Made by a program: the position numbers and the translations under genes
Notes under the pieces: model-generated
What the model saw: the letters and a program-made list of their open reading frames with translations, nothing else
Told to the model about the DNA's origin: nothing
The model's database searches: none
Source: Plantactinospora soyae
Lineage (GTDB): Bacteria > Actinomycetota > Actinomycetes > Mycobacteriales > Micromonosporaceae
Length of the DNA stretch: 64,000 nucleotides
Reading direction: 5' to 3'
Assembly (NCBI RefSeq): GCF_014874095.1
Contig: NZ_JADBEB010000001.1
Span: forward strand, 5,890,001-5,954,000
In this document: positions 3,345 to 64,000 of the stretch, piece after piece
Numbering within the stretch: the stretch's first letter is position 1
How the letters are laid out: every line of letters starts with the position of its first letter

Positions 3345-3356
3345 CCGCACCCGGAG

Positions 3357-8050: not shown

Positions 8051-8112
8051 TCGCGATCCGGGTCGGTCGACGCGGGTGAGGAGCCGGTCGAACAGGTCGC
8101 GGTGACCGAGTG

Positions 8113-12335: not shown

Positions 12336-12368
12336 CCGCGACGAGACCGCCGGTGGGCGGGGTCGCGG
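12336..12368 (+). terminator. Probable transcription terminator hairpin
   Basis: Immediately after the TGA of the FtsX-like permease, CCGCGAC (12336-12342) pairs with GTCGCGG (12362-12368), and an inner CCGCC/GGCGG helix closes on a GGTG loop. There is no U-tract, as is common in high-GC actinomycetes. It would end the exporter operon before the carotenoid oxygenase gene. Confidence 0.5.
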
Positions 12369-12509
12369 GGGAGAGCCGCAGGTCACGCGACCGGTCTGGC
12401 AGCGGGCCCCGGCCAGGATCCGGCAGGAACAACCCGGCACGACAACCGTACGACCAGCACCCGTAGTGATGGACATCAGTCCACGTCAACCAGAACAGGG
12501 AGTCCTGAG

Positions 12510-49520: not shown

Positions 49521-51349
49521 GTCGAGCCCGACCGGACCCCGTCCCGGGTCGCCGCCGCAGCCAGGACCGTCGGCCCGGCGCCGTACGCGGCGGCGTGCAG
49601 CGCGTACATCTCCGCGTACCGGCCGGCCCGGTCGATCAGCTCGGCGTGCGGGCCGTACTCGATTATCCGGCCCTCGTGCAGGACCACGATCAGATCCGCG
49701 TCACGTACCGTGGTCAGCCGGTGCGACACGACCACGGTGAGCGGTGCGTCGGCGGCTGACCGGGTCGGCGTGCGATACCTGCGCAGCAGTTCGGCTTCGC
49801 TGTCCGGGTCGAGGCTCGCCGCAGGCTCGTCGAGCAGCACCACCGTGGGCGTGGTCCGCATCCGGCCCCGGGCGAGGGCGAGCTTCTGCCACTGGCCGGA
49901 CGACAGGTCGGTGCCGTCCGGGAAGGTCCGGCCGAGCCGACTGTCGAGCCCGGCGGGAAGTTCGCCCACCACGGTGGCGGCGCCCGCCGATTCCAGCGCC
50001 CTGCCCACCGCCTCCCGGTCGTCGATCGCGCTGAGCCGGCCGACCCCGACCGACTCCCTGGCCAGCAGTTCGAACCGGCAGAAGTCCTGAAAGACCGCGG
50101 TGACCCGGGTCCGCCACACGTCCGGATCCACCTGCGCCAGGTCCTGCCCGCCGAAGGTGATCCGTCCGGTCGACGGCGGGTAGAGACCCGCCAGCAGCGC
50201 GACCAGGGTGGACTTGCCGGCACCGTTGTCACCGACGATGGCGACGGTGGCGCCGGCGGGCAGCCGGAGGTCGATCGGTCCCAGCGCCGGCGTCGCCTCG
50301 CCGGGGTACCGGAAACTCACCCCGTCGAGGACGAGGTCGCCCTGCTCCGGCAGGTCCCGACTCCGCCCCTCGACGGCGCCGGGGTGCGGATATCCGGCCA
50401 GGCGCTGGTAGAGCGCGACGGTGTGCAGCGCACGACGCAGCCATCCGATCAGCCAGCTCAGTCCGATGGTGGCGCCGACCAGCCGGGTGCCGAGCAGCAG
50501 GACCAGGACGGCCTCGCCGGCCGACGCGGTGCCGGCGAGCACAGATCGGGTGACGAGGTACAGCCCGGCCACGAGCGCGATACAGAACAGCAGCCAACCC
50601 GCCGCCACCGCGACGGCGCCGCGGGTCCTGGCCGACTCCCGACGGCGTGCCGAGACGGCGAACGCCGCCCGGTGCCGGGCGGCGATCTCGTCGCCCAGCC
50701 GGTACAACCGGACCTCGGGGGCGGCGGCCGGATCGGTGGCCAGGGTCAACAGGGCGCGGCGTTGGCGGTCCGCCTCGGCACCGGCCACCTCGGCCGCGGC
50801 AACGGCGGTCGCCTGCCAGCGGACGGCGAGGGCCAGCGGCACGATGAACAGCGGCAGCAGGGCCAGCACCGGACTGACGATCGCCATCAGCGCCACCGCA
50901 CCGGCGAACCGGGCCAACAGGCCGGCGTTCTCGACCAGCGCCGCGAATGCCCCGCCGAACTCGGTCCGGCGCTGCCGTACCAGCTCGGCCGTGTCGAGGA
51001 ACTCGGGGTCGTGGTAGTGGCTGATGTGGGTGGGACCGGAGCACAGCGTCATCAGGCGGCGGTCGAACTCCAGCCCGACCCGCTGCTGGAGCACCTGCCG
51101 GAGATCGGTCGCGACCGCGCTCGCCTGGTGCACGAAGACGGTGACGAGGACGAGGACCAGTCCGCCGGTCAGCGCCTCGGTGACCTGCCGGGCGACCGCG
51201 CCGTCGACCATGCCGCGCAGTCCCAGCGCCTGCGCCGCCGCGACGATGTTGAACAGCGGGACGAACACCATGACCAACACCGCGCGTCGCGGGTCCGCCC
51301 GGACCGCGACGCCCACCACCAGACGGGCGGCGCTCAGCCAGTTACGCAC
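49508..51349 (-). CDS. ABC exporter, fused permease-ATPase (first of pair)
   Basis: A 613-residue ABC half-transporter. About five to six membrane helices over residues 20-310, then the ATPase with Walker A GDNGAGKST at 373-381, a degenerate signature LSSGQWQK, Walker B VVLLDEPAASLDP and H-loop VVSHRL. The GTG start overlaps the 3' end of the preceding ABC gene by eight bases, so the two half-transporters are made together and probably form a heterodimer. This type exports small peptides or natural products and often gives self-resistance. Divergent radical SAM gene nearby. Confidence 0.88.
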   Translation of the reverse strand: MRNWLSAARLVVGVAVRADPRRAVLVMVFVPLFNIVAAAQALGLRGMVDGAVARQVTEALTGGLVLVLVTVFVHQASAVATDLRQVLQQRVGLEFDRRLMTLCSGPTHISHYHDPEFLDTAELVRQRRTEFGGAFAALVENAGLLARFAGAVALMAIVSPVLALLPLFIVPLALAVRWQATAVAAAEVAGAEADRQRRALLTLATDPAAAPEVRLYRLGDEIAARHRAAFAVSARRRESARTRGAVAVAAGWLLFCIALVAGLYLVTRSVLAGTASAGEAVLVLLLGTRLVGATIGLSWLIGWLRRALHTVALYQRLAGYPHPGAVEGRSRDLPEQGDLVLDGVSFRYPGEATPALGPIDLRLPAGATVAIVGDNGAGKSTLVALLAGLYPPSTGRITFGGQDLAQVDPDVWRTRVTAVFQDFCRFELLARESVGVGRLSAIDDREAVGRALESAGAATVVGELPAGLDSRLGRTFPDGTDLSSGQWQKLALARGRMRTTPTVVLLDEPAASLDPDSEAELLRRYRTPTRSAADAPLTVVVSHRLTTVRDADLIVVLHEGRIIEYGPHAELIDRAGRYAEMYALHAAAYGAGPTVLAAAATRDGVRSGSTQTG

Positions 51350-53180
51350 GACGGCCCCCTGCGGAATCGGTGAAGGGCGCGGACTGCACCCGGAACATCT
51401 GGGCGTACCGGCCGTCGGCCGCGAGCAACTCGTCGTGACTGCCGTACTCGCTCACCCGGCCGTCCCGCAGCACGGCGATCCGCTCGGCGAGCCGGACGGT
51501 GGCGAACCGGTGTGACACCAGGATCGTGGTGATGCCGGCGGTGATCTCCAGGAACCGGGTGTAGAGCTCGTACTCCGCCTCGATGTCCAGGTGCGCGGTG
51601 GGTTCGTCCAGGACGAGAACCCTGGCACCCTGCCGCACCGAGTAGAGCGCCCGGCTGAGCGCCAGCCGCTGCCACTGTCCGCCGGACAACTCGGTCCCGC
51701 CCAGGTGGGCGCTGGTGAGCAGGGTGTCCCAGCCGTCCGCCAGCCCCAACTCCACGCCGAGGAAGCCACCGAGGCGGGCGGCCTCGACCACCGCGTCCCT
51801 GGTGGCGGCCGTCTCGATCGCGCCGAAGGCGATGTTGTCGCGGACGGAGAACGGGTACCGTCCGAAGTCCTGGAACACCACGGCCAGCTGCCGCCGCCAA
51901 CTGGCGAGGTCGTATTCGTGCAGGTCCCGCCCGTCGACGCGGATCCGCCCGGCGTCCGGCCGGTACAGGCCGGCCAGCAACTTGGTGATGGTGCTCTTGC
52001 CGGCGCCGTTGTCGCCGACGATCGCGAGCGAGGATCCGGCCGGGATGACGAGGTCCAGGTTGTCGACGACCGGGCGGCGGTCGCCGGGGTATCCGAAGCG
52101 CACCCGCTCGAAGCGGATCTCGCGTTGGGGCAGCCGGGTGGCGGCCCGCCCGGTGACCGCGAGCGCCGGAGTGCCCAGCGCACTCACGGCGAGCGCCGGC
52201 GGTACGGCGGCACTGGCCAGCCGTAGCCGCCGTTGCAGGTCGCCGGTGAATCCCAGGGCGTAGAGACCCAGCAGCGACTGGAGGGCGATGGTCAGGTGTC
52301 CGATCGACGGGTCGCCGCTGCTGGCCCCGTACGCCAGCGGCACCACCACGATGACGTGTGCCGCCAGCAGCAGCGCGCTCGCCGCCAGGTGTCGACGGCC
52401 GTCGGTGGTCCTGCGCCGCATCTCGACGATGCCGTCCCACCACTCCCGGGTGAAGCGTTCGACGAGCCACTGGTGCAGGCCGAACAGGCGTACCTCCTTG
52501 GCCGACGGCGCGGTCGCCGTGATGTCGCGCAGGTACACCGCGTGTCGTAGCTGGACGGTCCTCGCGGTGTTGGCGACGACGGCGCGGGCCATCTCCTTCT
52601 CCTGCCAGCGGCCGGCGACGATCCAGCCGGCACCGAGTACGACGGGCATCCACCACTGCCCGGCCCAGCCCAGCAGGACCGCGGAGGCCAACCCGGTGAG
52701 TCGGAGCGGGACCAGGGCGGCCAGCGCGTCGACGGCCTGCCCGGGGGAGTGGCCGCCGATCTCGACCCCGCGTGCCTGCTCGAGCTGGTCGGCGACGTCC
52801 GGGTCGTCCAGGTGGTCGATCCCGCCGGGGCGAAGTGCGCCCTCGACGGTGCGTTGGGCCAGGCTGCCGTCGACCGCGGTACTCAGCTTCGCGGTGACCA
52901 TGGCGCGGATCGGGTCCAGCGCGATGTCCAGGACGAGCGCCAGCGCCAGGAGGGTGAGCCCCGACCATGCCTGTCGGGACGCCGTCGGGCCACCGCCGGC
53001 GGTCAGCGCCGTGACCAGTCGCCCGATCGCCAGTGGCAGCAGCGCGACGCCCGCCACCTGTCCGGCGACGAGCGCGACGAGCAGCACGGTCAGCGGGGTG
53101 TCGACGCGCGGCAGCTCACGGACGAGTGCCGACACACTGCCAGGGCGGCGGGTCACGGTGGCTGTCGGTGAGGTCGACAC
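51342..53180 (-). CDS. ABC exporter, fused permease-ATPase (second of pair)
   Basis: A 612-residue half-transporter with about six membrane helices over residues 25-320 and an ATPase with Walker A GDNGAGKST, canonical signature LSGGQWQRL, Walker B VLVLDEPTAHLD and H-loop LVSHRF. Start choice: two GTG codons follow an AAGGAG site; that at 53180 has ten bases spacing, that at 53189 only one, so 53180 is preferred. The open frame continues to 53549 but that part is Arg/Gly-rich. One ATPase site of the pair looks canonical (this one) and the other degenerate, a common feature of heterodimeric exporters. Confidence 0.87.
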   Translation of the reverse strand: MSTSPTATVTRRPGSVSALVRELPRVDTPLTVLLVALVAGQVAGVALLPLAIGRLVTALTAGGGPTASRQAWSGLTLLALALVLDIALDPIRAMVTAKLSTAVDGSLAQRTVEGALRPGGIDHLDDPDVADQLEQARGVEIGGHSPGQAVDALAALVPLRLTGLASAVLLGWAGQWWMPVVLGAGWIVAGRWQEKEMARAVVANTARTVQLRHAVYLRDITATAPSAKEVRLFGLHQWLVERFTREWWDGIVEMRRRTTDGRRHLAASALLLAAHVIVVVPLAYGASSGDPSIGHLTIALQSLLGLYALGFTGDLQRRLRLASAAVPPALAVSALGTPALAVTGRAATRLPQREIRFERVRFGYPGDRRPVVDNLDLVIPAGSSLAIVGDNGAGKSTITKLLAGLYRPDAGRIRVDGRDLHEYDLASWRRQLAVVFQDFGRYPFSVRDNIAFGAIETAATRDAVVEAARLGGFLGVELGLADGWDTLLTSAHLGGTELSGGQWQRLALSRALYSVRQGARVLVLDEPTAHLDIEAEYELYTRFLEITAGITTILVSHRFATVRLAERIAVLRDGRVSEYGSHDELLAADGRYAQMFRVQSAPFTDSAGGRRA

Positions 53181-53592
53181 GATGGGCACTCTCCTTGCGA
53201 CGTCGACGGTTCGGTCCCCCAGCGCCGCGGTGGCCACCCACTCGGAGTGACCACCGCCATCAGGCACCTGCCCCTTACGAGGCGTCGACCGGCGGGTATG
53301 CGCGCATGATCCACCTCCTTCGCTGGCGACGGGCAGCTGACCGTGGTGGCCGCCACGCCAGAACGCTAGGTGCCACCGCGCACCGGGGAATCGGTAGTCG
53401 GGTACGCAACCGCCCCGCCGCAACCACCGAGGGTCGACCGGCACGCTGGGTCGTCGGAGGTGCCGGCCTGCGTATCCGGTCGGGACTCTTGCGTATCCAT
53501 CGCCGATGTCCCAGGCGGTTCGGCGCCCGTACGGTTCCGGCGACCGCACTGCCGAACGCTCGGGAGACCCGTCTCATGAATGTCGACGTCCC
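53181..53592. other. Divergent region between ABC exporter and radical SAM genes
   Basis: Holds the 10-codon reading frame at 53275-53307 with a near-perfect ribosome binding site, a possible 35-codon frame at 53153-53260 (minus) overlapping the exporter start, and a six-codon frame at 53576-53596 (plus; MNVDVP) whose stop overlaps the radical SAM start. Both promoters must lie here. Confidence 0.5.
53275..53307 (-). CDS. Ten-residue reading frame with strong ribosome binding site
   Basis: ATG at 53307 to TAA at 53275 encodes MRAYPPVDAS. AAGGAGGT (53313-53320) lies five bases upstream, the best ribosome binding site in this neighbourhood, so translation here is likely. It lies 94 bases upstream of the ABC exporter start in the same direction and divergent from the radical SAM gene. 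It could be a tiny peptide precursor, as in the five-residue biarylitide precursor MRYYH, or an upstream reading frame controlling the exporter. No homologue is known to me. Confidence 0.4.
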   Translation of the reverse strand: MRAYPPVDAS

Positions 53593-54681
53593 ATGAACGC
53601 CGTCGCAGGTCCGAACGTCCTCATCTGGGACGTCACCTTCGCCTGTCCGCTGCGCTGCTCGCACTGCTACACGGAGTCGGGCCGGCGGCGCCCGCAGAAT
53701 CTGAGCCACGAGGAGATGCTGCGGGTGGCGGACGCGCTCATCACCTTCCGACCGGCCATGATCACGCTCTGCGGAGGTGAACCGCTCACCGTGCCGCGCA
53801 TCGTGGAGGTGGTGGAACGGTTCGCCACGGCGGGTGTGCGGGTCTTCCTCTACACCAGTGGCTGGTCACTGCCGGAGCAGACCGTACGCGACCTGGCCGG
53901 CATGGTCGCCAAGCTGGTGGTCAGTGTCGACGGCGCGACGGCGCAGGTGCACGACCGGATCCGTGGCCGAGCCGGTTCCTTCGACCGGGCGATGGCGGCG
54001 CTGGCCCTGCTCGACGCGGAGAGCGCGCGACGTGCCGCGGCGGGGGAGTCGCCGCTGCGGTTCGGCATCGACAACGTGGTGGTCCGCAGCAACTACCACC
54101 AGCTCGACGAGATGTGCGCCTCCGTCGCGCCACGGTTCCCGCACCTGAGTGACGTGGCGTTCGGTGCGGTGGTACCCACCGGCCTGGCCAGTCGGGTGTC
54201 GTACGGCGACCACGAGATGTTGACCGACGAGCAGGTCACGGCACTGGTCGACGAGGGGACGAGGCAGCGGCTCCAGCAGGCCGCGCCGGCGTCCGTCACC
54301 GTCACCACCACGGACAACTTCGGCGTGCAGATGCACCCCGACTACGTCGCCAGCCACCCCGACTTCCGGCCACTGGAGATCGAACCGGACGGCGAGGTGC
54401 GCGCGATGCCGATCTACGAGGGCACCGTCGGCAGCCTGCTGACCGAGGATCCGTTCGTGCTGTGGGAACGCGCCCGGAGCCGGTGGCACGACCCCTTCGT
54501 GCTGGAGTGTCTGCGCGGCATCCGTACCAGAAGGGACTGGGCCGAGGCGGTGCGCCGGATCGACTACCGGTTCGGCTCGGACCAGGTCCGAGCCCGGATC
54601 GATGGCCGCCCGGTCTTCGATCCGGCGCAGGCACCCCGGCAGCTCGCGCTGCGATCGGTCGGCGGTACGCCGACGCGCTGA
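53593..54681 (+). CDS. Radical SAM protein without SPASM domain
   Basis: A 362-residue radical SAM enzyme. The CxxxCxxC cluster motif is CPLRCSHC with Cys18, Cys22 and Cys25; GGEPL follows near residue 57, and the TIM-barrel strands VFLYTSG, KLVVSVDGA and FGIDNVVVRS are visible. The C-terminal region has only one further Cys (LECLRG), so there is no SPASM or twitch cluster of the usual sort. Similar short radical SAM proteins beside ABC exporters modify peptides or small metabolites; the substrate here is unknown. The ATG at 53593 lacks its own ribosome binding site but overlaps the stop of a six-codon frame (MNVDVP) that has GGGAG upstream, suggesting translational coupling. Convergent with the SARP gene. 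Confidence 0.85.
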   Translation: MNAVAGPNVLIWDVTFACPLRCSHCYTESGRRRPQNLSHEEMLRVADALITFRPAMITLCGGEPLTVPRIVEVVERFATAGVRVFLYTSGWSLPEQTVRDLAGMVAKLVVSVDGATAQVHDRIRGRAGSFDRAMAALALLDAESARRAAAGESPLRFGIDNVVVRSNYHQLDEMCASVAPRFPHLSDVAFGAVVPTGLASRVSYGDHEMLTDEQVTALVDEGTRQRLQQAAPASVTVTTTDNFGVQMHPDYVASHPDFRPLEIEPDGEVRAMPIYEGTVGSLLTEDPFVLWERARSRWHDPFVLECLRGIRTRRDWAEAVRRIDYRFGSDQVRARIDGRPVFDPAQAPRQLALRSVGGTPTR

Positions 54682-54742: not shown

Positions 54743-57616
54743 TCATCCGACGCCCAGCCGGGCCTGGACCGCGACCACGTCGGGATGGTTCAGCTCTTCC
54801 AGCACGGTCAGCGCCTGCCGCCATGCGCCGACCGCGGCGGTGTCGTCCCCGGCCGCGCGGTACGCCTCGCCGAGGCGTACGAGGGTGTCGGCCTCGGCGT
54901 AGCGGACTCCCAGTTCTCGCCAGACCTGGATCGCCCGCTGGTACGCCTCGACCGCCGCACCGGGTTCGCCACTGTGGTGGTGGGCGTACCCGATGCTGTC
55001 CCACACGTCGGCCTGGCTGCGCTGTTCGCCCGCCTCCTCCAGCAGCGCCAACGCCTGCTGGCAGTAGCAGAGGGCGGACTGGTGCTGGCCGAGTAGTGCG
55101 TGGTACCAGCCGACGGCGTTGAGCGCCATGGCCCGGCGGGCGGGGGTGCCGGCGGTCTTCAGCAGCCCCAGCGCCTGTTCGGCGTGGCTGAGTGCGAGGT
55201 CGTAGCGGCCCTGCTGTTCGAGTACCCAGCTGAAGGCCCGGTGCTGCTCGGCGCGGGTGTCGTCGTCGACCGTGTCGGTGAACAGGTCCAGGGCCTGCCG
55301 CATGTGATCGCCGGCCTCGGTGAGCTGGCCGAGGTTGGCCAGGGCCCGGGCCAGCACGCTGTGCATGTGTCCCAGCGCGACCGGATCGGCCAGGCGCTGC
55401 GCGGCGGCCAGCGCGGTCCGGCTGAGCGCCAGCTGTTCGTGCCACAGGCCCCGGCCGTAGAGGAACTGGTTCAGCGCCCAGGTCAGCTGCCACACGTGCG
55501 GGTCGAATCGCCGGTCGGTGGCCACGCTGGTCACCAGGTCCAGCAGGAGCCGGTAGCGGCTGTCCAACCAGGCCGACGCCTGCTCGGGCGTGGTCAGTTC
55601 GGTGACGTTCACCCCGGGCGCCGGTGTGGGCAGTGCGATCGGTGGTCGGGACGCCGAATAGCACACCGCCGCCGCGACGGCGGTGTGCACGTAGTGGTCG
55701 AGCAGCCGGTGCCGGGCCTGGTCGCGGGCGGCGTCGCTGTCGTGTTCCGCGCTCAGCTCGCCGGCGTAGGCCCGGAGCAGGTCGTGGCAGGTGTACTCGC
55801 CGGCGGCGGCCTCGCCGGCCAGGTGGGCCTGGGCCAGCGCGGCCAGCAACCCGCGGGCCTCGCGGGCGCTCACCCCGAGCAGGCTTGCCGCCGCGGGCAG
55901 CGTCAGCGGGCTGCCCGGATGCAGGGACAGCAGCCGGAACAGCCGGGCCACGCCGGGCTCAAGCGCCCGGTAGGACCAGGAGAAGACGACCCGGGCGTTG
56001 GTGGCGGCGTCCGCGCCGGCGAACGCGTCCAGACTGCCCTCGGCCGCGCGCAACTCCGCGACAACCGAGGTCAGCGGCAGATCCACGTCATGGGCGGCCC
56101 GCGCCGCGACCACGGCCAGCGCCAGCGGCAACCGCCCGCACCGCTCGGCGATCTCGTCCAGGACCGCCGGCGCCGCCGCCACCGCGGCCCGGTCCAGCCG
56201 CCGAATCAGATACTCACGGGCCTGGTCCAGCTCGAACAACGGCACCCGCATCGGCCGGGCGCCATGGGTGACGGTCAGCCCGGTCAACCGATCCCGGCTG
56301 GTGACAATGGCCAGACACGTGGTCGAACCGGGCAACAGCGGCCGGACCTGCGCCGCATCCCGGGCGTTGTCGATCACCACCAGCACCCGCCGTTGGGCCA
56401 GCACGCTGCGGTACAGCGCCGCCCGGTCGTCCAGCTCCGCGGGCAGATCCTTGGCGGGTACGCCCAGCGCCTGGAGGAGGCCGGCCAACGCCCCGGCCGG
56501 ACCCACGGTACGCCCGTCCGGGTCGAACCCCCGCAGGTTCACGTAGAGCTGCCCGTCCGGGAACCGGCTTGCGAAACAGTGCGCCAGATGAACCGCCAGC
56601 GCGGTCTTCCCCACCCCAGGCATGCCGTCAACCGCGACCACCGTCACACCGCCGCTGCGCTCCAGATCAGCCAGCAGCAGCGACGCCTGGGCGAGTTCCG
56701 TCCGCCGGCCGACAAAGACCGGCAGGTCGGCGGGGAGCTGGGCCAGCCGGGTCAACGGCCTCGCCGTATCCGCCGTGGCGTGCTTAGCCGGGTCCGGGCC
56801 GGCGGGTACGCCCGGGTCGGCGTGCGGGCCGGGCGGCTCGGCGGGCCGGACCTCGTCCGCCGGCACCTCCTGGAGGACGAGGCGCTGCGCCTCCTGGAGA
56901 TCGGGTCCCGGATCGATGCCGAGCTCGTCGGTCAGGCGGCGGCGGGTGTTCCGGTACGCGGCGAGCGCCTCGGCCCGCCGCCCGGTCGCCGCCAGCAGCC
57001 GGACCAGGCACGCCTGGATCGACTCGTTCAGCGGGTCGAAGGCGGCGGCCCGCCGCACCTCGCCCAGGCACTCGTGGCCCAGGTCCGAGCGCAGGCCGAA
57101 CTGGGCGGCCTCCTGCGCGGCCGCGAGGTACTCGTGATCGGCGGCGGTGAACGCGAGGGGTACCCGGTCGACCGTCCGGACGTCGGCGGCGCACGGCCCG
57201 CGCCACAGGCGCAGCGCCGCCACGTACGCCTCGACGGCCGCCCCGGGCTCGCCCGCCTCCACGTGCCGCCCGGCCTGCTCGCGCAGCTGCCGGAACGACG
57301 CCAGGTCGAGGGCGTCGACGCTGACGACAATCCGGTACCCGCCGACCTGCCGCGCAAGGATCGTGCCGTTGACGCGTGCCGGCAGGTCCGGCTCCAGGAT
57401 CCGGCGCAGGCCGCTGACGTAGCGGTGAATGAGGTTCGCGGCGGTCGACGGCGGGTTGTCTCCCCAGAGCATCTCGGTGATCGTCCCGGTGCCGACCGGC
57501 TGACCCGCCTCGGCCAGCAACAGACCCAGCAACGCCCGCTGCTGTGGTGGCCCGAGCTCGATCTCGACCCCGTCGCGCCAGGCCCGAATCGCTCCAAGGA
57601 TCCCGAACGTGATCAT
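54743..57616 (-). CDS. SARP/AfsR-type regulator with NB-ARC and TPR domains
   Basis: A 957-residue intact AfsR-like activator: OmpR-like DNA-binding domain (residues 1-95), bacterial transcriptional activation domain (about 100-250), a Pro-rich linker, NB-ARC ATPase starting VFVGRRTELA with Walker A GMPGVGKTALA (near residue 330) and Walker B RRVLVVIDNARDA, and six or so TPR repeats from about 690 to the end. Such proteins activate specialised-metabolite clusters. It faces away from the glycosyltransferase operon (start 57616 against 57843), so it may control that operon, the radical SAM/ABC genes, or both. It is the intact counterpart of the frameshifted gene at 23430-26224. Confidence 0.92.
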   Translation of the reverse strand: MITFGILGAIRAWRDGVEIELGPPQQRALLGLLLAEAGQPVGTGTITEMLWGDNPPSTAANLIHRYVSGLRRILEPDLPARVNGTILARQVGGYRIVVSVDALDLASFRQLREQAGRHVEAGEPGAAVEAYVAALRLWRGPCAADVRTVDRVPLAFTAADHEYLAAAQEAAQFGLRSDLGHECLGEVRRAAAFDPLNESIQACLVRLLAATGRRAEALAAYRNTRRRLTDELGIDPGPDLQEAQRLVLQEVPADEVRPAEPPGPHADPGVPAGPDPAKHATADTARPLTRLAQLPADLPVFVGRRTELAQASLLLADLERSGGVTVVAVDGMPGVGKTALAVHLAHCFASRFPDGQLYVNLRGFDPDGRTVGPAGALAGLLQALGVPAKDLPAELDDRAALYRSVLAQRRVLVVIDNARDAAQVRPLLPGSTTCLAIVTSRDRLTGLTVTHGARPMRVPLFELDQAREYLIRRLDRAAVAAAPAVLDEIAERCGRLPLALAVVAARAAHDVDLPLTSVVAELRAAEGSLDAFAGADAATNARVVFSWSYRALEPGVARLFRLLSLHPGSPLTLPAAASLLGVSAREARGLLAALAQAHLAGEAAAGEYTCHDLLRAYAGELSAEHDSDAARDQARHRLLDHYVHTAVAAAVCYSASRPPIALPTPAPGVNVTELTTPEQASAWLDSRYRLLLDLVTSVATDRRFDPHVWQLTWALNQFLYGRGLWHEQLALSRTALAAAQRLADPVALGHMHSVLARALANLGQLTEAGDHMRQALDLFTDTVDDDTRAEQHRAFSWVLEQQGRYDLALSHAEQALGLLKTAGTPARRAMALNAVGWYHALLGQHQSALCYCQQALALLEEAGEQRSQADVWDSIGYAHHHSGEPGAAVEAYQRAIQVWRELGVRYAEADTLVRLGEAYRAAGDDTAAVGAWRQALTVLEELNHPDVVAVQARLGVG

Positions 57617-57842
57617 TCCCGGCAGCCTACGACATTGTGCACAGTGCCGGTGCGGCGTGACCGCTGAGTGGACAAAGACTGATCACCGTCTGTACGCGGA
57701 GTCCGGGCGGTCACCGTTCGTGGAGGTGGCCGGTCAGTGCCGGAAACCACAATTGCACGTGTACATCCGGGAATTGACGGATGGAGACGAGGCGATTCGT
57801 CGGTCCCCGGCGCGCACCCGCCGATAGAACTCGGAGACGTGG

Positions 57843-58640
57843 ATGTCGGAACGTCTGGACGATGTCGAGACCGGAGATCGGCCGGATGTCACCGTCGTGG
57901 TACCCGCCTCGAACGCGAGGCCCAACATCGGCCGTACGCTGGATTTCCTGATCGCCAGCCTGGCACCGCAGGCCAGTTTCGAGATCCTCGTCGTGGTCAA
58001 CGACGCGATTCCCGGCCCGGTGGTCTCGGACGTACGGCTCTACCGGGTGAACACCGACCCGCGGGTGGAACTGCACCAGTTGCCCGGCGGGGACAAGGCG
58101 GCCGCGATCCGGTACGGGTTCGAGCGCGCCCGCGGCCGGGTGTGGGGGTACTCCGACGGCGACCTGGGCTGGCAGGCCCGGGTGGACGAGACCGGCGAGA
58201 TGCTGTCGCTGGTGCTCTCCGGCGCGTGCGACCTGGTGGCCGCGGAGCGCGACCAGTCACAGTGGACTCCAATTCGGCGGTGGAAGACCAACGTCTTCCG
58301 GTGGGTCGGCCGGTGGGTGTTCCGGCACCACCTGGTGGACTCGCAGGCACCGCTGAAGTTCATGACGGCAGAGGTCGGGCGGGCGGTCCTGGGTTCGTGC
58401 GCATTCCGGGGCTGGGAGTTCGACGTCGAGCTGCTCTGGTGGGTGCGCCGTTTCGGCTACCGGATCCGGCCCTACCCGGTCCACTGGTCGACCACCGGAA
58501 CCGAAACGACCCTGGAGACCGTCGTGCTCGGCCTGGTGTTCATGGGGCCCGCCATGGTCGTCAACCTGGCGCGGGTCCGGGTTCGGGCGTGGTTCCTGCA
58601 GCGTCGGCTCATCCGCCGGTACCGGCGTACCCCGGCCTAG
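57843..58640 (+). CDS. Family 2 glycosyltransferase
   Basis: A 265-residue GT-A fold glycosyltransferase using a nucleotide or polyprenyl-linked sugar donor. Seen: VTVVVPASNARPNIGRTLDFL at the N-terminus, SFEILVVVNDA, the metal-binding acidic motif YSDGDLGW near residues 104-111, and FRGWEFDVELLWWVRRFGYRI, an acceptor-side region. The C-terminus has a hydrophobic stretch (VVLGLVFMGPAMVVNLARV) and a basic tail, so it may attach to the membrane. GGAG precedes the ATG. It is the first gene of the apparent operon to 64000; the sugar acceptor is unknown. Confidence 0.82.
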   Translation: MSERLDDVETGDRPDVTVVVPASNARPNIGRTLDFLIASLAPQASFEILVVVNDAIPGPVVSDVRLYRVNTDPRVELHQLPGGDKAAAIRYGFERARGRVWGYSDGDLGWQARVDETGEMLSLVLSGACDLVAAERDQSQWTPIRRWKTNVFRWVGRWVFRHHLVDSQAPLKFMTAEVGRAVLGSCAFRGWEFDVELLWWVRRFGYRIRPYPVHWSTTGTETTLETVVLGLVFMGPAMVVNLARVRVRAWFLQRRLIRRYRRTPA

Positions 58641-58677
58641 TTCCGCCGTCCGTACGACCGACTCGAAAGGAGACGTG

Positions 58678-59535
58678 GTGAGCGCGAGGAGCGAGCATGC
58701 GAGCCCCGCAGTCCTGAACGACGTGGAGGACGGCATGCCCCCCGAGCCGATCTTCGTCCTCGGTTCACCCCGCTCCGGGACCACCCTGGCCGGTGCCTGG
58801 CTCGGTTCACACCCGTCGGTGTACGCCATGGGCGAGTACTCGGCGTTCGTCTTCGCGTACGCGACCGCACCTGCCGGGTACACCCGGACCCGGCCGCCCT
58901 ATGCCGAGCGCTACCTGCGGGAGCTGCAGAACCACGCCGCCGAGTTCGCCGGCCGACTCGCCACGGAGCGGGGCGCGCGGTTCTTCTGTGACTCCACGCC
59001 CTGGAACCTCCTGGTCGCGGACACCCTCGCCGAGCTGTACCCGTCCGCCCGCTTCGTGCTCACCCTGCGCCACTACGCGGGGGTGATCCAGTCGCTGGAG
59101 CGTTCCTACCGCCGGAGGTACCTGTGGGCCGGCGCCACCCCGGTCGACCGTGCCTCCGTATGGGCCGCCGTGTACGAGCGGGCCGCCGCCCTGCCGGCCG
59201 ACCGCACCACGGTGTTCAGCTACGACGAGCTGTGCGCCGACCCGGACGGCACCATCGCGCGCTGGCGGTCGGCGCTGGCCCGGATCGGTGTCGACCCTGC
59301 CGGACTGGACGACCGGGTCTTCCTCCGCAGCTATGCCGGCGGATGGGACGACCAGCGACGCACGGTCGCCACCCGCACGGGTGGGCGGGTGGAGTTCGCA
59401 CCGATCCCGAGCGTCGATCCGGAGCGGTGGAGCGAGGCTCTCGACACCGAGGTGCGCCCGGTGGTCGGTGAGGTGGACCGCATGCTGCGGCAACGCTTCT
59501 CCGAGTACGCGACACCGCCCTGCGCCGTGTCGTGA
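58678..59535 (+). CDS. PAPS-dependent sulfotransferase
   Basis: A 285-residue sulfotransferase transferring sulfate from PAPS to a hydroxyl or amine. The 5'-phosphosulfate loop is VLGSPRSGTTLAGAWLGSHP near residues 28-47 and the 3'-phosphate segment is RFVLTLRHYAGVIQSLERSY near 125-145, with YDELCADPDG downstream as usual. Two adjacent GTG codons are possible starts; that at 58678 has AAAGGAG five bases upstream. The gene lies 37 bases after the glycosyltransferase gene and 65 before the small peptide gene. Its position suggests tailoring of the same final product. Confidence 0.85.
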   Translation: MSARSEHASPAVLNDVEDGMPPEPIFVLGSPRSGTTLAGAWLGSHPSVYAMGEYSAFVFAYATAPAGYTRTRPPYAERYLRELQNHAAEFAGRLATERGARFFCDSTPWNLLVADTLAELYPSARFVLTLRHYAGVIQSLERSYRRRYLWAGATPVDRASVWAAVYERAAALPADRTTVFSYDELCADPDGTIARWRSALARIGVDPAGLDDRVFLRSYAGGWDDQRRTVATRTGGRVEFAPIPSVDPERWSEALDTEVRPVVGEVDRMLRQRFSEYATPPCAVS

Positions 59536-59600
59536 CCAGGCCGCAGCCGGCGATCCGCCCGGCTGTGTTCGGAGCAAGGCCATGGAAGGAGGTGTGCAAC

Positions 59601-59780
59601 ATGGCAGAACTCTTCGCCCCGATGGTGAAGATGCGGCAGATGCTCAACAAGATCGCGAGCCAGGGCCGGGAGCAGCGCGAGTCGCTGCTCGGCCCGGTCC
59701 CGGGTCTGAACCTCGGAACGGCCGGCGCCCATGCCGCGCAGGCCGTCGAGCCCGCGCAGCGTCACACGCCGGAGCAGTAG
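59601..59780 (+). CDS. Small 59-residue peptide, possible RiPP precursor
   Basis: MAELFAPMVKMRQMLNKIAS begins a 59-residue product with an amphipathic, charged first half (to GREQRESLLG) and a Gly/Ala/Pro-rich second half (PVPGLNLGTAGAHAAQAVEP, then AQRHTPEQ). There is no signal peptide, no Cys and only two Ser and two Thr. AAGGAGGTG lies about six bases upstream of the ATG, the strongest site in this operon. A 14-bp hairpin follows at 59846-59893, so expression may exceed that of the downstream genes. This leader-plus-core layout is typical of ribosomal peptide precursors, but I recognise no class. Confidence 0.65.
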   Translation: MAELFAPMVKMRQMLNKIASQGREQRESLLGPVPGLNLGTAGAHAAQAVEPAQRHTPEQ

Positions 59781-59845
59781 TACCGGCAGTTCCGGCCATC
59801 GCCGGGCCCGGGGCGGGCGGAGGGGTCACGCCCGTCCCGGGGACG

Positions 59846-59893
59846 CCGCCGGCCTCCGGTAAGCCGGCGAACCGTCTTCCCGGAGGCCGGCGG
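59846..59893 (+). terminator. Intergenic hairpin, probable partial terminator
   Basis: CCGCCGGCCTCCGG (59846-59859) pairs exactly with CCGGAGGCCGGCGG (59880-59893) around a 20-base loop, between the small peptide gene and the enzyme genes. No other promoter is evident before 59922, so it likely acts as a read-through attenuator lowering enzyme expression relative to the peptide. Confidence 0.65.
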
Positions 59894-59921
59894 TGGTTTC
59901 CGCCCGAGGAGAAAGGACGCC

Positions 59922-60914
59922 ATGCAGATCGTCTTCGGCGACCTGGTCATCTGCGACTACGAGCTGGGCGCCACGCTGTCACCGATCGAGTTGGAGCTGT
60001 ACACGTCGGGCGTGCAGGCGGTACCGGAAGTGCTGCTCGGCGAGCCGCTGACGCTCGGCAGCCTCCGGCGCCAGGGAGTGCTCGACATCCCGCTGGCCGA
60101 GTTCGTCCGGGTCCGCGACCGGTTCACCGAACGTGTCTGGTCGGCCGGTACGGCGGCGGCGACCCGCCGACACCTCGACGACCTCGTACGCCGGGCGGAC
60201 ACGCTCGCCGGGGACGTCGAAGCCCGGCTCCTGGCCGACCGGATCGACGGCGATCTGCTGCGCGCCTACCACGGCACCCTGGTCCGGCTGATGGCGTACC
60301 ACGTGCTCAACTGGTGGCTGCCGGTGGACGACTACGAACGGCTCCTCGCCGGGCTCCTCGGTCCCGAGCGGGGCCGCGACGTGCTGTTCCGGTTGCTGAC
60401 ACCGAGCCGGCAGCCCCACATGATCTCGTTCCACGAGGAGATCCTGGCCGCGGACCGGTCGGCGCCGGCTGCCGCCGAACGACTCGCCAGGCAGGTCGGT
60501 TACCTACAGACCTGGGGTGCGGCGGCCTCCGTCCTGGAGAGCCCGGCCGCGATGAGCCAGCACCTGAGCGGGCTCGACGCCGGCCATGCGGCCGACGGCC
60601 TTGCGCTCATGCGGGCGGCCCGGACCGATGCCCGGCGGCGCCGCGACGAGGCCCTGGCCGAGGCGCTGGCGGCCGCCCACGCCGACCCGGCGCGGTTCGA
60701 CCGGGTGGAGGCCCTGGCGATCATGTGTCAACTTGCCTGTGACGAGGAGGAGGACCGCCGCGTGCACCAGTTGCGCGGGCTGCGCAACCTACGCGTCGTC
60801 GCCCGGCTCGCCGGCACCGACCTCACCCGAACCAGCTTCGTGCGGCTGCTGAGTACCGCGGCCGGCAGCGTCCGGACACCGCTGGCCGGGGTACCCGGCA
60901 CGGACGGGCGGTGA
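59922..60914 (+). CDS. Helical protein resembling the central domain of PEP-synthase-like enzymes
   Basis: A 330-residue, mostly helical protein. I recognise no stand-alone family, but the segments LLTPSRQPHMISFHEEILAA, LARQVGYLQTWGA and MCQLACDEEEDRRVHQLRGL resemble the helical linker between the ATP-grasp and the phospho-His domains in rifampin phosphotransferase/PEP-synthase-like enzymes. The next gene encodes both those domains without a linker, so the enzyme appears to be split. The N-terminal MQIVFGDLVICDYELGATLS is unlike that family. AAAGGA precedes the ATG. Four bases separate it from the next gene, so both are surely co-expressed. Role inferred. Confidence 0.6.
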   Translation: MQIVFGDLVICDYELGATLSPIELELYTSGVQAVPEVLLGEPLTLGSLRRQGVLDIPLAEFVRVRDRFTERVWSAGTAAATRRHLDDLVRRADTLAGDVEARLLADRIDGDLLRAYHGTLVRLMAYHVLNWWLPVDDYERLLAGLLGPERGRDVLFRLLTPSRQPHMISFHEEILAADRSAPAAAERLARQVGYLQTWGAAASVLESPAAMSQHLSGLDAGHAADGLALMRAARTDARRRRDEALAEALAAAHADPARFDRVEALAIMCQLACDEEEDRRVHQLRGLRNLRVVARLAGTDLTRTSFVRLLSTAAGSVRTPLAGVPGTDGR

Positions 60915-60918
60915 CCCG

Positions 60919-62721
60919 GTGCCGCGCCCGTCCTTCCTGCATCCCCTCGCCGCCGCCGACGACCCGGCACTGATGGGGCGCAAGGCCGTGGGCCTGCGCC
61001 TCGCCTCGGTTGCGGGTCTGCCCGTACCCCCGGCACTCGTGCTCGACGCCGATGCCCTGCGCGCCCATCTTGACTACCATGGCGGCCCGGTGGATGCGGT
61101 GACCGCGATCCTCGAAGGTCACCTGCCCGAGCGCGTGGCGCACGCCGTGCACTCCGCCGCGGAGCACTTCCGTACCGCCCAGCACGGGGTTGTCGTCCGC
61201 TCCTCGGCACCCGGCGAGGACGGCGAGGACCTCTCCTTTGCCGGCCAGTTCGGATCGTTCTTCTGCCCCAGCCGCCCCAACGCGGTGCAGACGGCGGTCC
61301 GCCGCGTCTGGGCCAGCGCGTTCGGCACCACGATCCGGCAGTACGAGCAGAACCGCCCGGACCGGTCCGAGCGCGCCCCGGCGATGGCGGTGATCGTCCA
61401 ACAGGCCGTGAATCCCTGGTGTTCCGGTGTTCTCGCGGCCGACGCCGGTGGCCGCGGCAGGCTTCTCGTGGAGAGCTGTCCCGGACTGCCGGTACCGGTG
61501 GTGCAGGGGTTGATCCGCCCGGAGGTGCTGGTGTCGCGCCAACCCGGCCACAGCGACCTGCACGACGGGGATCGCCACGTCTGGGTCGTCACTGCCGGCG
61601 GTCCCGGTGCCCCCGAGGTGCTGCCCGGCGACCTCTTCCCGGCGCCGGACGGCTTTCCGCTGCCGGACGGCGCCGGGACCGAGCAGCCGTGGAAGGTGGT
61701 GTGGCGCGAGCCGGCCGGTGTCCTGGTCTATCTCCAACCGCCGGAGCGGGTCCAGCAGACGCCCGCGCTCACGGCGGGCGACGAAGCCATCTTTCGTGAC
61801 CTGGTCCGGCGGCTGCCGGACCCGGGTGGTGCCGGACTGGACGTGGAGTGGGCCCGCGACGCGAGCGGCCTGCACCTCCTACAGGTCCGTCCGCTCACCG
61901 CCCCGGTGCCGCTGGAGCCCCGGGCGAGCGGCACCGGTGGAAGCGACCCGTTGATCGGGTCGACACTCCTGCACGGCCGTCCGGCCGCGGCAGGGCACGC
62001 CGAGGGCCCGGTCTGGCTGGGCTCTCAGCCCGGTGTGGCCGCCGAGCAGATGCCGGACGGCGCGGTGCTGGTCTGCTCCGGGCTCTCCACGGACCTGATG
62101 CCCGCGCTGCTCCGGGCCGCAGGTGTGATCAGTGGCGAGGCCGGTGTCCTGGCCCACACCGCGATCGTCGCCCGCGAGCTGGGCAAGCCGTGCGTGATCG
62201 ATATCCCGATCGGTTCGGGCCGGCTGAAGAACGGCGATCTGGTGCACCTCGACGGCGATCGGGGCACCGTCCGGCTCCTCGGGGAGTCGGGCCAGGGCCC
62301 GGCCGGCGACCCGCCACCGATGCCCGGCACGCCCCCAGCGGATCGGGCGCTCCCGGACGCACTACTGATCGTGGTGACCCGGCACAGCGGCGAGGGGGGA
62401 TTGGCAGCACCGGTCGACATCGGCTCGTGGAGCTGGCTCGGCGTCCTGCTTCCGGACCCGCCTGCCGCCTCGGACGGGGCCGAGACCCACCGGCTGCTCC
62501 GTACCCGGCTCTCGGCCGGCGGCTGGGCGGGCACCCCGCTGGCCGGCGGCGGCGAGGTGTGGCGGGCGGTGCGCACGGTGCCCGGCGAGACATGGCGGCT
62601 GGACCTGTCCGACGGCCGGGCGATCCTCGGCGTACCGGGCCGGGAGCCCGTTGTCTGCCGACTGCGGACGGCCTCGCCCGAGGCCCTGACCCAGCTCGTC
62701 TCGACGGGGGTCCTGAGATGA
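60919..62721 (+). CDS. PEP/pyruvate-kinase-like phosphotransferase
   Basis: A 600-residue enzyme of the PEP synthase/rifampin phosphotransferase type. The ATP-grasp PPDK_N domain (residues 1-330) has GRKAVGLRLASVAGLPVPP, VVVRSSAPGEDGEDLSFAGQ and LDVEWARDASGLHLLQVRPL. A mobile phospho-His domain (about 350-450) has SGEAGVLAHTAIVARELGKP with His413 as the expected phospho-carrier. Between them the usual helical linker is absent, apparently supplied by the preceding gene. The last about 150 residues are an extra domain I do not recognise. Such enzymes pass phosphate from ATP via His to a small molecule or pyruvate; the acceptor here is unknown. The GTG start lies four bases after the previous stop, and the stop overlaps the start of the next gene. 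Confidence 0.78.
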   Translation: MPRPSFLHPLAAADDPALMGRKAVGLRLASVAGLPVPPALVLDADALRAHLDYHGGPVDAVTAILEGHLPERVAHAVHSAAEHFRTAQHGVVVRSSAPGEDGEDLSFAGQFGSFFCPSRPNAVQTAVRRVWASAFGTTIRQYEQNRPDRSERAPAMAVIVQQAVNPWCSGVLAADAGGRGRLLVESCPGLPVPVVQGLIRPEVLVSRQPGHSDLHDGDRHVWVVTAGGPGAPEVLPGDLFPAPDGFPLPDGAGTEQPWKVVWREPAGVLVYLQPPERVQQTPALTAGDEAIFRDLVRRLPDPGGAGLDVEWARDASGLHLLQVRPLTAPVPLEPRASGTGGSDPLIGSTLLHGRPAAAGHAEGPVWLGSQPGVAAEQMPDGAVLVCSGLSTDLMPALLRAAGVISGEAGVLAHTAIVARELGKPCVIDIPIGSGRLKNGDLVHLDGDRGTVRLLGESGQGPAGDPPPMPGTPPADRALPDALLIVVTRHSGEGGLAAPVDIGSWSWLGVLLPDPPAASDGAETHRLLRTRLSAGGWAGTPLAGGGEVWRAVRTVPGETWRLDLSDGRAILGVPGREPVVCRLRTASPEALTQLVSTGVLR

Positions 62722-64000
62722 CCCTCCACGAGCACTACCTGCCGGCGGCCCGCCGGCTGCTCGACGCCGCCGGGCTGCGCCGGAGCCTCGACGAGATCCG
62801 CCGACTGCCGGGCATCGAGACGGTGGACGTCTTCCCCGATGTCACGGTCAAGGACTGGGGGTTTCCCTCCGGCCTGGCGATCCGGTCACGCGGGTACCTG
62901 TACCCCTTGGCCGTGCCGGACCCGGGCAGCGGATACCACGTGAGTGCCCTGCCGATGCACCGCGACCAGCTCGGCCCGGATGAGGTCCGGGCCCTCTACG
63001 ACGCCGTCGCGAGCTCGGTCAACCACCGCGACCTGCGGTACGAGTATCCCAAGGTCGACCTCGACCGGGTACTGGCCGACGGGCTGGACTACGCCGCCCA
63101 GCTGCACCCGGACCTGGGTGGCCCCGCGGCGGAGCCCGCCGACCGAGGGTGGCACCGGGCCGGCGTCGTCGCCCGCTTCGACGACGACCTCAAGGCAACC
63201 CTGCGGCGTTCGCTCGGCGGGGCCGACGGACACTACGTCGCGGTGCAGTGGATTCAGCAGCTCCTGGATCCCGAAACGGCGCAGCGACACGGGCTGCGTA
63301 CCGGACAACTCGTCCTGATCATCCACATCGGTGCCAGACCGATGCGGGAGTACATCTACCGGCGGTACGGCCTCCCGGCAGCCGAACACAGCCTTCACGA
63401 CGGCACCGCGCTTCCGGAGCAGCTGCGCACCGGAATCTTCGCGGTACGCAGCGACAGCCCGTATGGCGAGGCGTACCTGGACTGCGCGGCGGCCAGTGCC
63501 AACTTCGGATACTTCAACCGTCACCTGGTCCGGCTCAATGTCCTGGCCGCACTGGCACCACGGTGGGGCGACCTCACCGGGCAGGCGCCGCTGCTGCAAC
63601 ACCGGCATCACACCGAGCTGAGCATTGCCGCCGACCAGACTGTCACGGCGCGCCGGGGCATCCAGCGGCTGGACGCCGACGCGGGTGGGGAATGGCTGCC
63701 GGACCGGAGGGACCCGCTCTCCTATGTGGCCGGTGGCGAGTTCGGCTCCAGCTATCTCGTCACCACCACCGATCCGGACCGGTACGCGAACCTGTGCGGT
63801 CACGGCATCCCCGAGTGGCAGCCCGTCGGCCGGTTCCGGGACCAGATCGACGACTGCCTGCCGCACGCCCGCGCGGCGGTCCGCAACTCCGCCTTCGCCC
63901 CTGCGACCTTCGCCCGCGACGTGGCTAACCTGGAGGAGACCACGGCACACGTCTGCGACATCGGCATGGCGCGACCGGTGGCCCGGCTGTACCCGTTGGC
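62718..64000 (+). CDS. RtcB-like protein, 3' partial
   Basis: At least 427 residues, running off the window. Motifs in order resemble the RtcB RNA ligase family: RRLPGIETVDVFPDVT (normally PDVH), AVPDPGSGY (normally VDIGCGM; the metal Asp kept, Cys changed to Ser), GHYVAVQW (normally GNHFIEVQ; His kept), LIIHIGARP (normally HSGSRG; His kept), AAASANFGYFNRHLV, HHTELSI (normally HN), TARRGIQR (normally xRKGA) and CGHGIPEW (normally SHGAGR, with the guanylylated His). So most catalytic positions can be matched but several are changed; the activity may differ from RNA ligation. ATG overlaps the TGA of the phosphotransferase gene, so it belongs to the same operon. Alignment is by eye. Confidence 0.6.
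   Translation, partial: MTLHEHYLPAARRLLDAAGLRRSLDEIRRLPGIETVDVFPDVTVKDWGFPSGLAIRSRGYLYPLAVPDPGSGYHVSALPMHRDQLGPDEVRALYDAVASSVNHRDLRYEYPKVDLDRVLADGLDYAAQLHPDLGGPAAEPADRGWHRAGVVARFDDDLKATLRRSLGGADGHYVAVQWIQQLLDPETAQRHGLRTGQLVLIIHIGARPMREYIYRRYGLPAAEHSLHDGTALPEQLRTGIFAVRSDSPYGEAYLDCAAASANFGYFNRHLVRLNVLAALAPRWGDLTGQAPLLQHRHHTELSIAADQTVTARRGIQRLDADAGGEWLPDRRDPLSYVAGGEFGSSYLVTTTDPDRYANLCGHGIPEWQPVGRFRDQIDDCLPHARAAVRNSAFAPATFARDVANLEETTAHVCDIGMARPVARLYPL

Follow-up and report, generated by a model that had tools for sequence, protein, structure and literature searches.

What might an operon produce that joins a gene for a 59-residue peptide to a phosphotransferase apparently split over two proteins and to a relative of the RNA ligase RtcB? 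The question is raised by the right end of a 64,000-nucleotide stretch of the Plantactinospora soyae genome (the window). A first-pass annotation had seen six co-directional genes there, separated by short gaps or ATGA overlaps, and had proposed an undescribed peptide-tailoring operon with the peptide as its substrate. The gene set, the reading of a split enzyme, and the linkage of the peptide to its neighbors hold up, whereas the argument drawn from a hairpin behind the peptide gene and the step from peptide to substrate do not. The operon is real and its cassette extends past the six reported genes. Peptide, apparently split kinase, and altered RtcB relative form a rare combination; as had been suspected, no described pathway with this gene set is found in the literature searched, outside of which most subscription journals lie.

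The operon runs on the forward strand and begins with a GT2 glycosyltransferase (P0001, 265 aa, 57,843–58,640; PF00535, E 3.2e-8, 34 bits against a Pfam cut-off of 23.3), whose nearest solved chain, in a weak match (E 7e-4), is the family 2 glycosyltransferase 6yv7. It is followed by a sulfotransferase (P0002, 286 aa, 58,675–59,535; Sulfotransfer_3, PF13469, E 1.7e-23, 84 bits in Pfam) with TPST1/2 as nearest solved relatives, a weak likeness restricted to the N-terminal half. Then come the peptide gene (P0005, 59 aa, 59,601–59,780), P0003 (330 aa, 59,922–60,914), P0004 (600 aa, 60,919–62,721), and the RtcB-like P0006 (434 aa, 62,718–64,022), whose end lies beyond the window (64,000). The gaps from the glycosyltransferase to P0004 measure 34, 65, 141, and 4 nt, and P0004 and P0006 share a 4-nt ATGA overlap, which confirms the described arrangement. 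Two ABC exporter genes at the window-equivalent positions 64,035–65,729 and 65,726–67,540 belong to the same operon. The first cassette gene is divergent and encodes a SARP-type transcriptional regulator (957 aa, 54,743–57,616, reverse strand; Trans_reg_C, BTAD, NB-ARC, and TPR domains).

The limits of the cassette are given by Plantactinospora alkalitolerans, which carries the same cassette flanked by other genes. The eight genes from the glycosyltransferase to the second ABC gene share 84 to 97% protein identity, and the block common to both species starts at window position 54,738, with the SARP-type gene inside. Similarity is lost at both cassette ends when the 20-kb and 21-kb stretches are compared. 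The nine-gene cassette thus spans 54,743 to about 67,540, more than first reported. A radical SAM gene (P0009, about 53,593–54,681) was considered as a further member and rejected, as it is unmatched in the P. alkalitolerans locus. The ABC genes at 49,508–53,549 were excluded because the DNA common to both species ends at the SARP-type gene.

The order peptide-P0003-P0004-P0006 is kept in four genomes (G000, G104, G228, and G741). Two of them, G228 and G741, belong to another genus, where other genes, including an aminotransferase and an amidohydrolase, adjoin the core. The identity of 84 to 97% in P. alkalitolerans, together with the core in two genomes of another genus, places the gene set beyond chance. 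The survey comprised 1995 genome look-ups, repeats included. The window's family was searched in 300 genomes. Three of them hold P0003, and the same three are those with a close relative of P0006 (E ≤ 1e-40; no further match is better than 9e-14). The idea of peptide tailoring was to fall if the PEP enzyme and the RtcB-like gene occurred together without the peptide; this outcome is not seen, as the peptide lies immediately upstream of P0003 in all four loci in which both P0004 and P0006 were found. The peptide of G228 is found in two of 160 genomes of its own genus, both core-bearing.

P0004 has the anatomy expected of one half of a split dikinase, consistent with the earlier label of a split PEP-dependent phosphotransferase. 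An ATP-grasp part reaches to about residue 332 (PPDK_N, PF01326, 93.8 bits in Pfam) and a phosphohistidine swivel domain covers residues 352–454 (PEP-utilizers, PF00391, 60.8 bits in Pfam). R94-S-S-A, E100-D, and the swivel histidine H413 are invariant in all six sequences compared. The swivel aligns with residues 766–866 of rifampin phosphotransferase (RPH), and no central acceptor domain appears between the ATP-grasp and swivel parts in the alignment to RPH. The best NCBIfam match of P0004 is PigC, at 136 bits against a cut-off of 1300, and all NCBIfam cut-offs are far off. RPH, as described in PMC4844700, and the prodigiosin ligases PigC/RedH share the ATP-grasp and swivel domains with P0004; unlike it, each is one chain, roughly 870 aa long, that also holds a central acceptor domain.

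The acceptor-binding component is proposed to be P0003, which matches no Pfam or NCBIfam family. Its AlphaFold2 model (pLDDT 82) weakly resembles the acceptor domain of RPH. In Foldseek, the four highest probabilities among the 50 matches listed fall on rifampin phosphotransferase (0.87, 0.82, 0.80, and 0.75), all of them weak matches with E of 0.11 or worse and TM up to 0.43, and the best match by E-value is an unrelated transporter. Homology to the fused acceptor domains of PigC and RPH is not detectable by sequence: an hmmsearch of P0003 against six targets gives a best full-sequence E of 0.019 with the best segment in the swivel region, and hhalign against the fused dikinases gives a probability of 0.3 on a percent scale. 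No fused P0003-P0004 protein was found. A P0004-like gene adjoins P0003 in 11 of the 11 strong-hit loci examined, and together with the fold likeness this suggests that P0003 and P0004 probably pair as one two-component dikinase. RPH-type dikinases with ATP-grasp, histidine swivel, and acceptor spread over two proteins are described in PMC12167813 (HpeHI, CreHI, and PpsAB). The swivel of HpeHI is joined to the acceptor and its ATP-grasp is separate, whereas here the swivel is joined to the ATP-grasp and the probable acceptor part is a protein of its own. HpeHI-type dikinases belong to aromatic catabolism, whereas the setting of the cassette looks biosynthetic.

A second setting of adjacent P0003 and P0004 genes is found in three loci of family f20 and four of family f21, where the pair adjoins QueD/QueE-like genes and lacks RtcB. 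All seven have a divergent NUDIX-type gene directly upstream of P0003 in place of the peptide gene, an assignment confirmed by Pfam in L050 only. That the peptide was not found beside the pair in these seven loci rests on gene layout. When 4198 start codons from L048, L049, L050, and L062 (but none from L076–L079) were scored for the peptide, the best score was 24, against 23 for the real pair, which leaves the scan without power in these four loci. As the pair also occurs beside QueD/QueE-like genes without peptide and RtcB, its chemistry appears not to be peptide-specific.

RtcB is an RNA ligase that joins RNA 3′-phosphate or 2′,3′-cyclic phosphate ends to 5′-OH ends in a GTP-dependent reaction. 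P0006 takes on the same fold: it scores 65 bits against a Pfam cut-off of 27 (PF01139, E 7.7e-18), and all 16 Foldseek matches with E ≤ 0.001 are RtcB-family structures. The metal ligands D68, H172, H203, and H298 are kept (matched to human RTCB by motif and not by direct alignment), and the metal aspartate, the three histidines, and the position of the guanylylated histidine (H362 in P0006) are found in 34 of 34 sequences. The fifth metal ligand, a cysteine, is present in G228 and G741 and replaced by serine in P. alkalitolerans and in P0006 (Ser71), which therefore lacks the full Asp, Cys, His, His, His set. In all four clade members the α-phosphate-contacting asparagine has become Gly171 and the guanine-binding glutamate Ala175, and four further positions are changed (Ser to Ala, Asn to Thr, His to Ala, and Lys to Arg). 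All six are conserved in the 30 nonclade sequences, which form only three groups at 50% identity, and human RTCB agrees with these 30 for Asn226 and Glu230. The roles of the altered positions are taken from PMC8668186 and PMC10944509. P0006 is thus probably a repurposed RtcB, judging from its residue pattern. Guanylylation is reported to be abolished in human RTCB C122A, so that P0006 with its serine may be incapable of RtcB-type chemistry in P. soyae.

Might P0006 then be an ordinary RNA-repair RtcB, or a noncatalytic bystander in the operon? The RtcB fold (Foldseek probability 1.00) and the cysteine-to-serine exchange at the metal site in this genome speak in favor. Both readings are very unlikely, given the ATGA overlap with P0004 and an adjacency kept in four of four core loci, the purifying selection on P0006 (dN/dS 0.15), a loss of the guanine pocket that runs through the clade while the catalytic residues are kept, and the two further RtcB-family genes in the window genome. 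No Archease gene is found among the annotated cassette genes.

The peptide gene itself is real. A strong Shine-Dalgarno-like stretch, GGAAGGAGGTG, lies ahead of it, as first noticed. P0005 matches no Pfam or NCBIfam family, and it is 97% identical in P. alkalitolerans with few changes (dN/dS 0.15); a probable homolog takes up this place in G228 and G741. The frame is conserved and linked to the PEP enzyme and RtcB, and loss of the frame, the other outcome that was to refute the idea of peptide tailoring, is not seen. Between G228 and G741, residues 1–21 are identical although synonymous sites have changed about once each (approximately 10.7 synonymous changes in the first 24 codons, dS approximately 1.0, dN 0.07), and the tail drifts with a dN of 0.54, the pattern of a real gene. 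The similarity across genera is modest. It is reached by 56 of 100,000 shuffles, and among 228 natural N-termini by none for residues 1–21 and by two for residues 5–21.

The hairpin between the peptide gene and P0003 (59,781–59,921, forward strand) had been read as the usual layout of ribosomal-peptide operons. It is stable in the window genome (−98.2 kcal/mol, z −5.0). The corresponding region of P. alkalitolerans reaches a z of only −1.5, just 7 nt separate the peptide gene from P0003 in G228 and G741, and no terminator-like site is predicted in 57,500–64,000. The hairpin is therefore not constrained, and a conserved hairpin or attenuator was rejected.

What role the peptide plays divides the remaining explanations. 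If it were the precursor of a true RiPP, its C-terminal half would receive phosphate, sugar, and sulfate groups, be joined by P0006, and be exported. The pattern of a short ribosomal precursor conserved beside the core enzymes in four of four loci, with a constant N terminus and a variable tail, is that of leader and core. At residue 20, LGG|S in G228 and G741 and IAS|Q here may resemble a border of the double-glycine type, and Ser20, Ser28, Thr40, and Thr56 are possible acceptors. We nevertheless judge it unlikely, and the peptide is unproven as a substrate. Strong constraint is limited to the first 21 or so residues, in G228 and G741 the enzymes are kept while the peptide tails drift, and the peptide lacks Cys, Tyr, and Trp. 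Furthermore, no peptide is found beside the dikinase pair in the seven loci examined of the second setting, and no RiPP-modifying enzyme, leader peptidase, peptidase family, or C39 domain is recognized by Pfam and NCBIfam in the eight cassette genes scanned (P0001–P0008), nor a modifying enzyme or leader peptidase in the SARP-type protein. Rather unlikely is a peptide that serves as a structural or regulatory subunit of P0003, P0004, or P0006 and is never modified, the product being a small molecule. Strong constraint on the N-terminal 21 or so residues only and the position directly upstream of P0003 in four of four loci would suit such a subunit, but the NUDIX-type gene at that place in seven of seven f20/f21 loci implies that the pair needs no peptide generally.

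The reading that we favor, if tentatively, is a secondary-metabolite cassette built around a four-gene core of peptide, two-component dikinase, and repurposed RtcB-like metalloenzyme. P0003 would bind the acceptor, and His413 of P0004 would take up the β-phosphate of ATP and swing over, so that a hydroxyl (or enolizable carbonyl) of a pathway intermediate is phosphorylated. The metal/histidine center of P0006, devoid of canonical guanine recognition, may then couple or rearrange the phosphorylated intermediate, in the simplest form by linking it to a second hydroxyl through a phosphodiester or phosphate-activated bond. Decoration by the glycosyltransferase and the sulfotransferase would follow, with export by the ABC pair and the SARP-type gene as switch. 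The peptide would act as leader or carrier whose N-terminal 21 or so residues, probably a helix, are recognized by the core enzymes, and its tail would be a spacer or be trimmed off. The product is probably an exported small molecule. What the analysis shows directly is the gene set with its limits and co-occurrence, the domains of P0004, the residue pattern of P0006, and selection on the N terminus of the peptide; a single enzyme formed by P0003 and P0004, each reaction, the part played by the peptide, and the product are inferred. A more specific version is unlikely: in this as yet undescribed, peptide-scaffolded phosphate chemistry, a short helical carrier peptide would hold the growing product, a dikinase of new split would phosphorylate it, and a guanine-blind RtcB would use its metal/histidine center to join the phosphate to a second group. 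The resulting natural product would carry sugar and sulfate groups and a phosphodiester or phosphoramidate linkage. Against the favored cassette model stand the lack of sequence-level homology of P0003 to fused dikinases and its weak fold matches, the serine in place of the metal cysteine, the modest peptide similarity across genera, and the dikinase pair found elsewhere without peptide or RtcB. A further point against it is that the peptide holds no tyrosine, although the weak likeness of the sulfotransferase is to the tyrosylprotein kind.

A carrier role recalls the LysW-type amino-group carrier pathways, with which the cassette shares a small protein and, in the G228 version, a LysJ/ArgD-like aminotransferase (150 bits against LysJ, cut-off 700). 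The cassette differs in that its peptide matches no family and no other lysine-pathway enzyme is recognized. Whether the peptide is a carrier, a leader, or a subunit is a well-defined question that can be put to the test. If the assignments are correct, P0003/P0004 would carry two-component dikinases beyond aromatic catabolism into biosynthesis and show another way of dividing their domains. The P0006 clade, with metal and histidine residues mostly kept, its guanine pocket gone, and a biosynthetic-looking operon around it, would represent a new use of the RtcB fold. The P0003/P0004 pair also marks at least one other uncharacterized type of gene cluster, which makes it a practical handle for genome mining.

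Some minor matches were seen beyond these loci. P0003 has weak matches in G372 and G1223 and another in G704 (E 1.5e-4), the latter in a stretch without a recognized P0004-like gene. One promoter-like site is predicted in 57,500–64,000, inside P0003, and nothing is built on it here. On plasmids, P0003 has no match, P0006 has four weak records, and P0004 has 168, seven of which were examined. A Kitasatospora plasmid, with no P0003 recognized among its called genes, carries a P0004-like gene beside QueD/QueE-like genes.

The unit is a nine-gene cassette of ~12.8 kb, as judged by sequence comparison, because the similarity to Plantactinospora alkalitolerans (same genus, locus on NZ_JADPUN010000148.1) stops at both ends. 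All six co-directional genes of the first-pass annotation are confirmed. The operon continues beyond the window end with two ABC exporter genes, and a divergent gene from 57616 encodes a SARP-type regulator (Trans_reg_C, BTAD, NB-ARC, and TPR domains). On L005, the stretch of the 9.7-Mb, single-contig P. soyae genome that runs past the window end, the shared DNA extends from 738 to 13528 at ~91% identity. Both limits coincide with gene ends: that of the regulator (window position 54738) on the left and that of the second ABC exporter (window-equivalent position 67528) on the right. Outside of these limits no match was found between the two genomes when stretches of 20 kb and 21 kb were compared, and the flanking genes differ. 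The cassette is real and conserved and, as far as the literature searched shows, undescribed. Taken singly, its components are variants of familiar types; what is unusual, and testable, is that they are combined with an apparently neofunctionalized RtcB.

A radical SAM gene immediately upstream (~53593–54681; nearest NCBIfam model the mycofactocin maturase, 103 bits of 265) was rejected as a cassette member, as it lies beyond the DNA shared with P. alkalitolerans. Together with two ABC exporter-like genes on the opposite strand it occupies window 49508–54681, which may be a distinct cluster for a peptide or a cofactor. Directly after the cassette, a ricin-type lectin-domain protein is encoded on the other strand (L005 13639–14202, Ricin_B_lectin 60 bits).

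The core of the cassette consists of the 59-residue peptide (59601–59780), P0003 (59922–60914), the ATP-grasp/swivel protein P0004 (60919–62721), and the RtcB-like protein P0006 (from 62718). P0003 matched no Pfam or NCBIfam model and is rare. In overlapping genome samples it was found in 3/300 genomes of the window's family, 4/394 of the class (the window's own counted in), and 2/396 of the phylum (one of them weak, the other being the window's own), as well as in 3/35 genomes of the order of G409, 3/160 of the genus of G228 (one weak), and 5/249 of family f21 (one weak). The genomes G228 and G741 are from another genus in the window's family, at a guess probably Micromonospora. Both carry, in this order, the peptide, P0003, P0004, an RtcB-like protein, a class III aminotransferase, an amidohydrolase, and an unknown gene (Pfam was run on the G228 copies; the G741 aminotransferase is called as two pieces).

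Judged from its codon changes, the peptide gene is translated and its N-terminus is under strong selection, because residues 1–21 are identical in G228 and G741 despite ~10.7 synonymous differences in the first 24 codons (dS near 1), while the tail diverges (dN 0.54). The two Plantactinospora copies differ by two nonsynonymous and four synonymous changes in 58 codons (dN/dS 0.15, from small numbers), with one extra C-terminal residue in P. soyae. The N-termini of the Plantactinospora and G228 peptides match without gaps (MAE..A..., Lys17 common to both), with a score that is attained by 56/100,000 shuffles and 0/228 natural N-termini, or by 380/100,000 and 2/228 when the first four residues are removed. 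On these scores the peptides are likely homologous, a reading that is partly carried by the “MAE” and by gene position. Within its genus the G228 peptide occurs in 2/160 genomes, precisely the two that bear the core.

P0004 can be aligned to PEP synthases and to rifampin phosphotransferase (RPH) over the ATP-grasp (to ~residue 332) and swivel (352–454) domains, which are separated by a short linker; in RPH, the ATP-grasp domain is described as ending at 314 and the swivel as beginning at 767 (PMC4844700). The swivel histidine H413 and the ATP-grasp residues are invariant in 6/6 homologs. The C-terminal 150 residues are dispensable or optional in the family, since the 428-residue homolog from G409 (L049 10795–12081) ends soon after the swivel domain. 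The model of P0003, built from six sequences (pLDDT 82, pTM 0.78), shows two strand pairs in the N-terminal region followed by a helical bundle. Foldseek returned 0/291 hits with E ≤ 0.001. Among the best 50 of the 291, the top four probabilities all belong to RPH (5fbs 0.87, 5fbu 0.82, 5fbt 0.80, 5hv3 0.75) at E-values of 0.11–0.39, and the lowest E-value (0.092) is that of an ABC transporter. No sequence similarity of P0003 was found to four fused dikinases, a Thermomicrobium PEP-utilizing protein, or a Nonomuraea sequence that is the longest frame of its stretch and may be the wrong one. P0003 probably represents the acceptor part of a dikinase, encoded as a separate protein. Two-component dikinases are already known in HpeHI, CreHI, and PpsAB; HpeHI is described with its swivel fused to the acceptor part (PMC12167813), whereas that of P0004 is fused to the ATP-grasp part.

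At E ≤ 1e-40, close relatives of P0006 were found in 3/300 family genomes, identical to the three with P0003; any RtcB-family match at E ≤ 0.001 is present in 141/300, the best after the close relatives being 9e-14. P0006 takes on the RtcB fold over its full length in a model of moderate quality (pLDDT 71, residues 363–404 under 50). All 16 Foldseek hits with E ≤ 0.001 (probability 1.00, TM 0.64–0.72) are RtcB-family proteins: the RtcB enzymes of human, zebrafish, and Pyrococcus, plus two TTHA1785 chains. When the four core-associated proteins were aligned with 30 further RtcB-family ORFs taken from the retrieved loci, the four formed one clade (support 1.0), and the metal Asp, three metal His, and the guanylylated His are conserved in 34/34 sequences. 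In human RTCB, Asn226 is reported to bind the α-phosphate and Glu230 the guanine (PMC8668186, PMC10944509). At these positions, located by comparing motifs and their order with human RTCB, Asn and Glu are present in 30/30 of the others, which are not independent (three groups of 27, 2, and 1 at 50% identity), and Gly and Ala in 4/4 clade members. Four more positions differ all-or-none between the two sets, and the C-terminal guanine-contacting Lys is an Arg in the clade by a single-column reading. As dN/dS is 0.15, we read P0006 as carrying a repurposed active site rather than a decayed one. The main fact against this is the loss in the window genome of the metal Cys, which in human RTCB (C122) is reported as required for guanylylation (PMC10944509): it is retained in G228 and G741 and replaced by Ser in both Plantactinospora copies. 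The P. soyae genome harbors two further RtcB-family genes (G000:C1:9685808 and 4702863), and P0006 is therefore a third, divergent paralog.

The first-pass annotation favored the peptide as the substrate of the tailoring enzymes. Its constrained part is the N-terminus and not a potential product core, the genes scanned include no known RiPP enzyme or peptidase, and the sulfotransferase's nearest solved relatives (weak matches) act on tyrosine, which the peptide lacks; these points argue against that view. The peptide's role would be that of a leader or carrier, or of a subunit. Most likely, the P0003/P0004 pair would phosphorylate an intermediate, at either a hydroxyl or a carbonyl, and P0006 would then use the phosphate for the next bond at its metal/His center. 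The GT2 and the sulfotransferase would decorate the product, and the ABC proteins would export it. The analysis establishes the genetics and the residue patterns alone; the reactions and the product are inferred.

P0003 also adjoins P0004 at the cluster end, without P0006, in seven more loci from two other families of the same class (three of f20, four of f21), and in each of them a NUDIX-type gene lies divergently just upstream of P0003. A recurrent cluster in these loci (L048, L049, L050, L076–L079) comprises QueD-type, QueE-like, phosphoribosyltransferase, glycosyltransferase, radical SAM, DegT, RNase_T, and NUDIX genes, with P0003/P0004 last. Pfam was applied to L050 alone, the other six being labeled by eye from their sequences. 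It confirmed PTPS (QueD-type), Radical_SAM (QueE-like by sequence), phosphoribosyltransferase, glycosyltransferase, PIG-L, WbqC, a second Radical_SAM, DegT, RNase_T, and NUDIX; a thymidylate kinase falls just under the cut-off. The cluster looks like an uncharacterized 7-deazapurine natural-product pathway. No P0003 was recognized among the called genes of L062, a stretch of a Kitasatospora sp. NBC_01519 plasmid. On this plasmid, which is typed as mobilizable, a P0004-like gene (L062 12001–13440) adjoins QueD/QueE-like genes.
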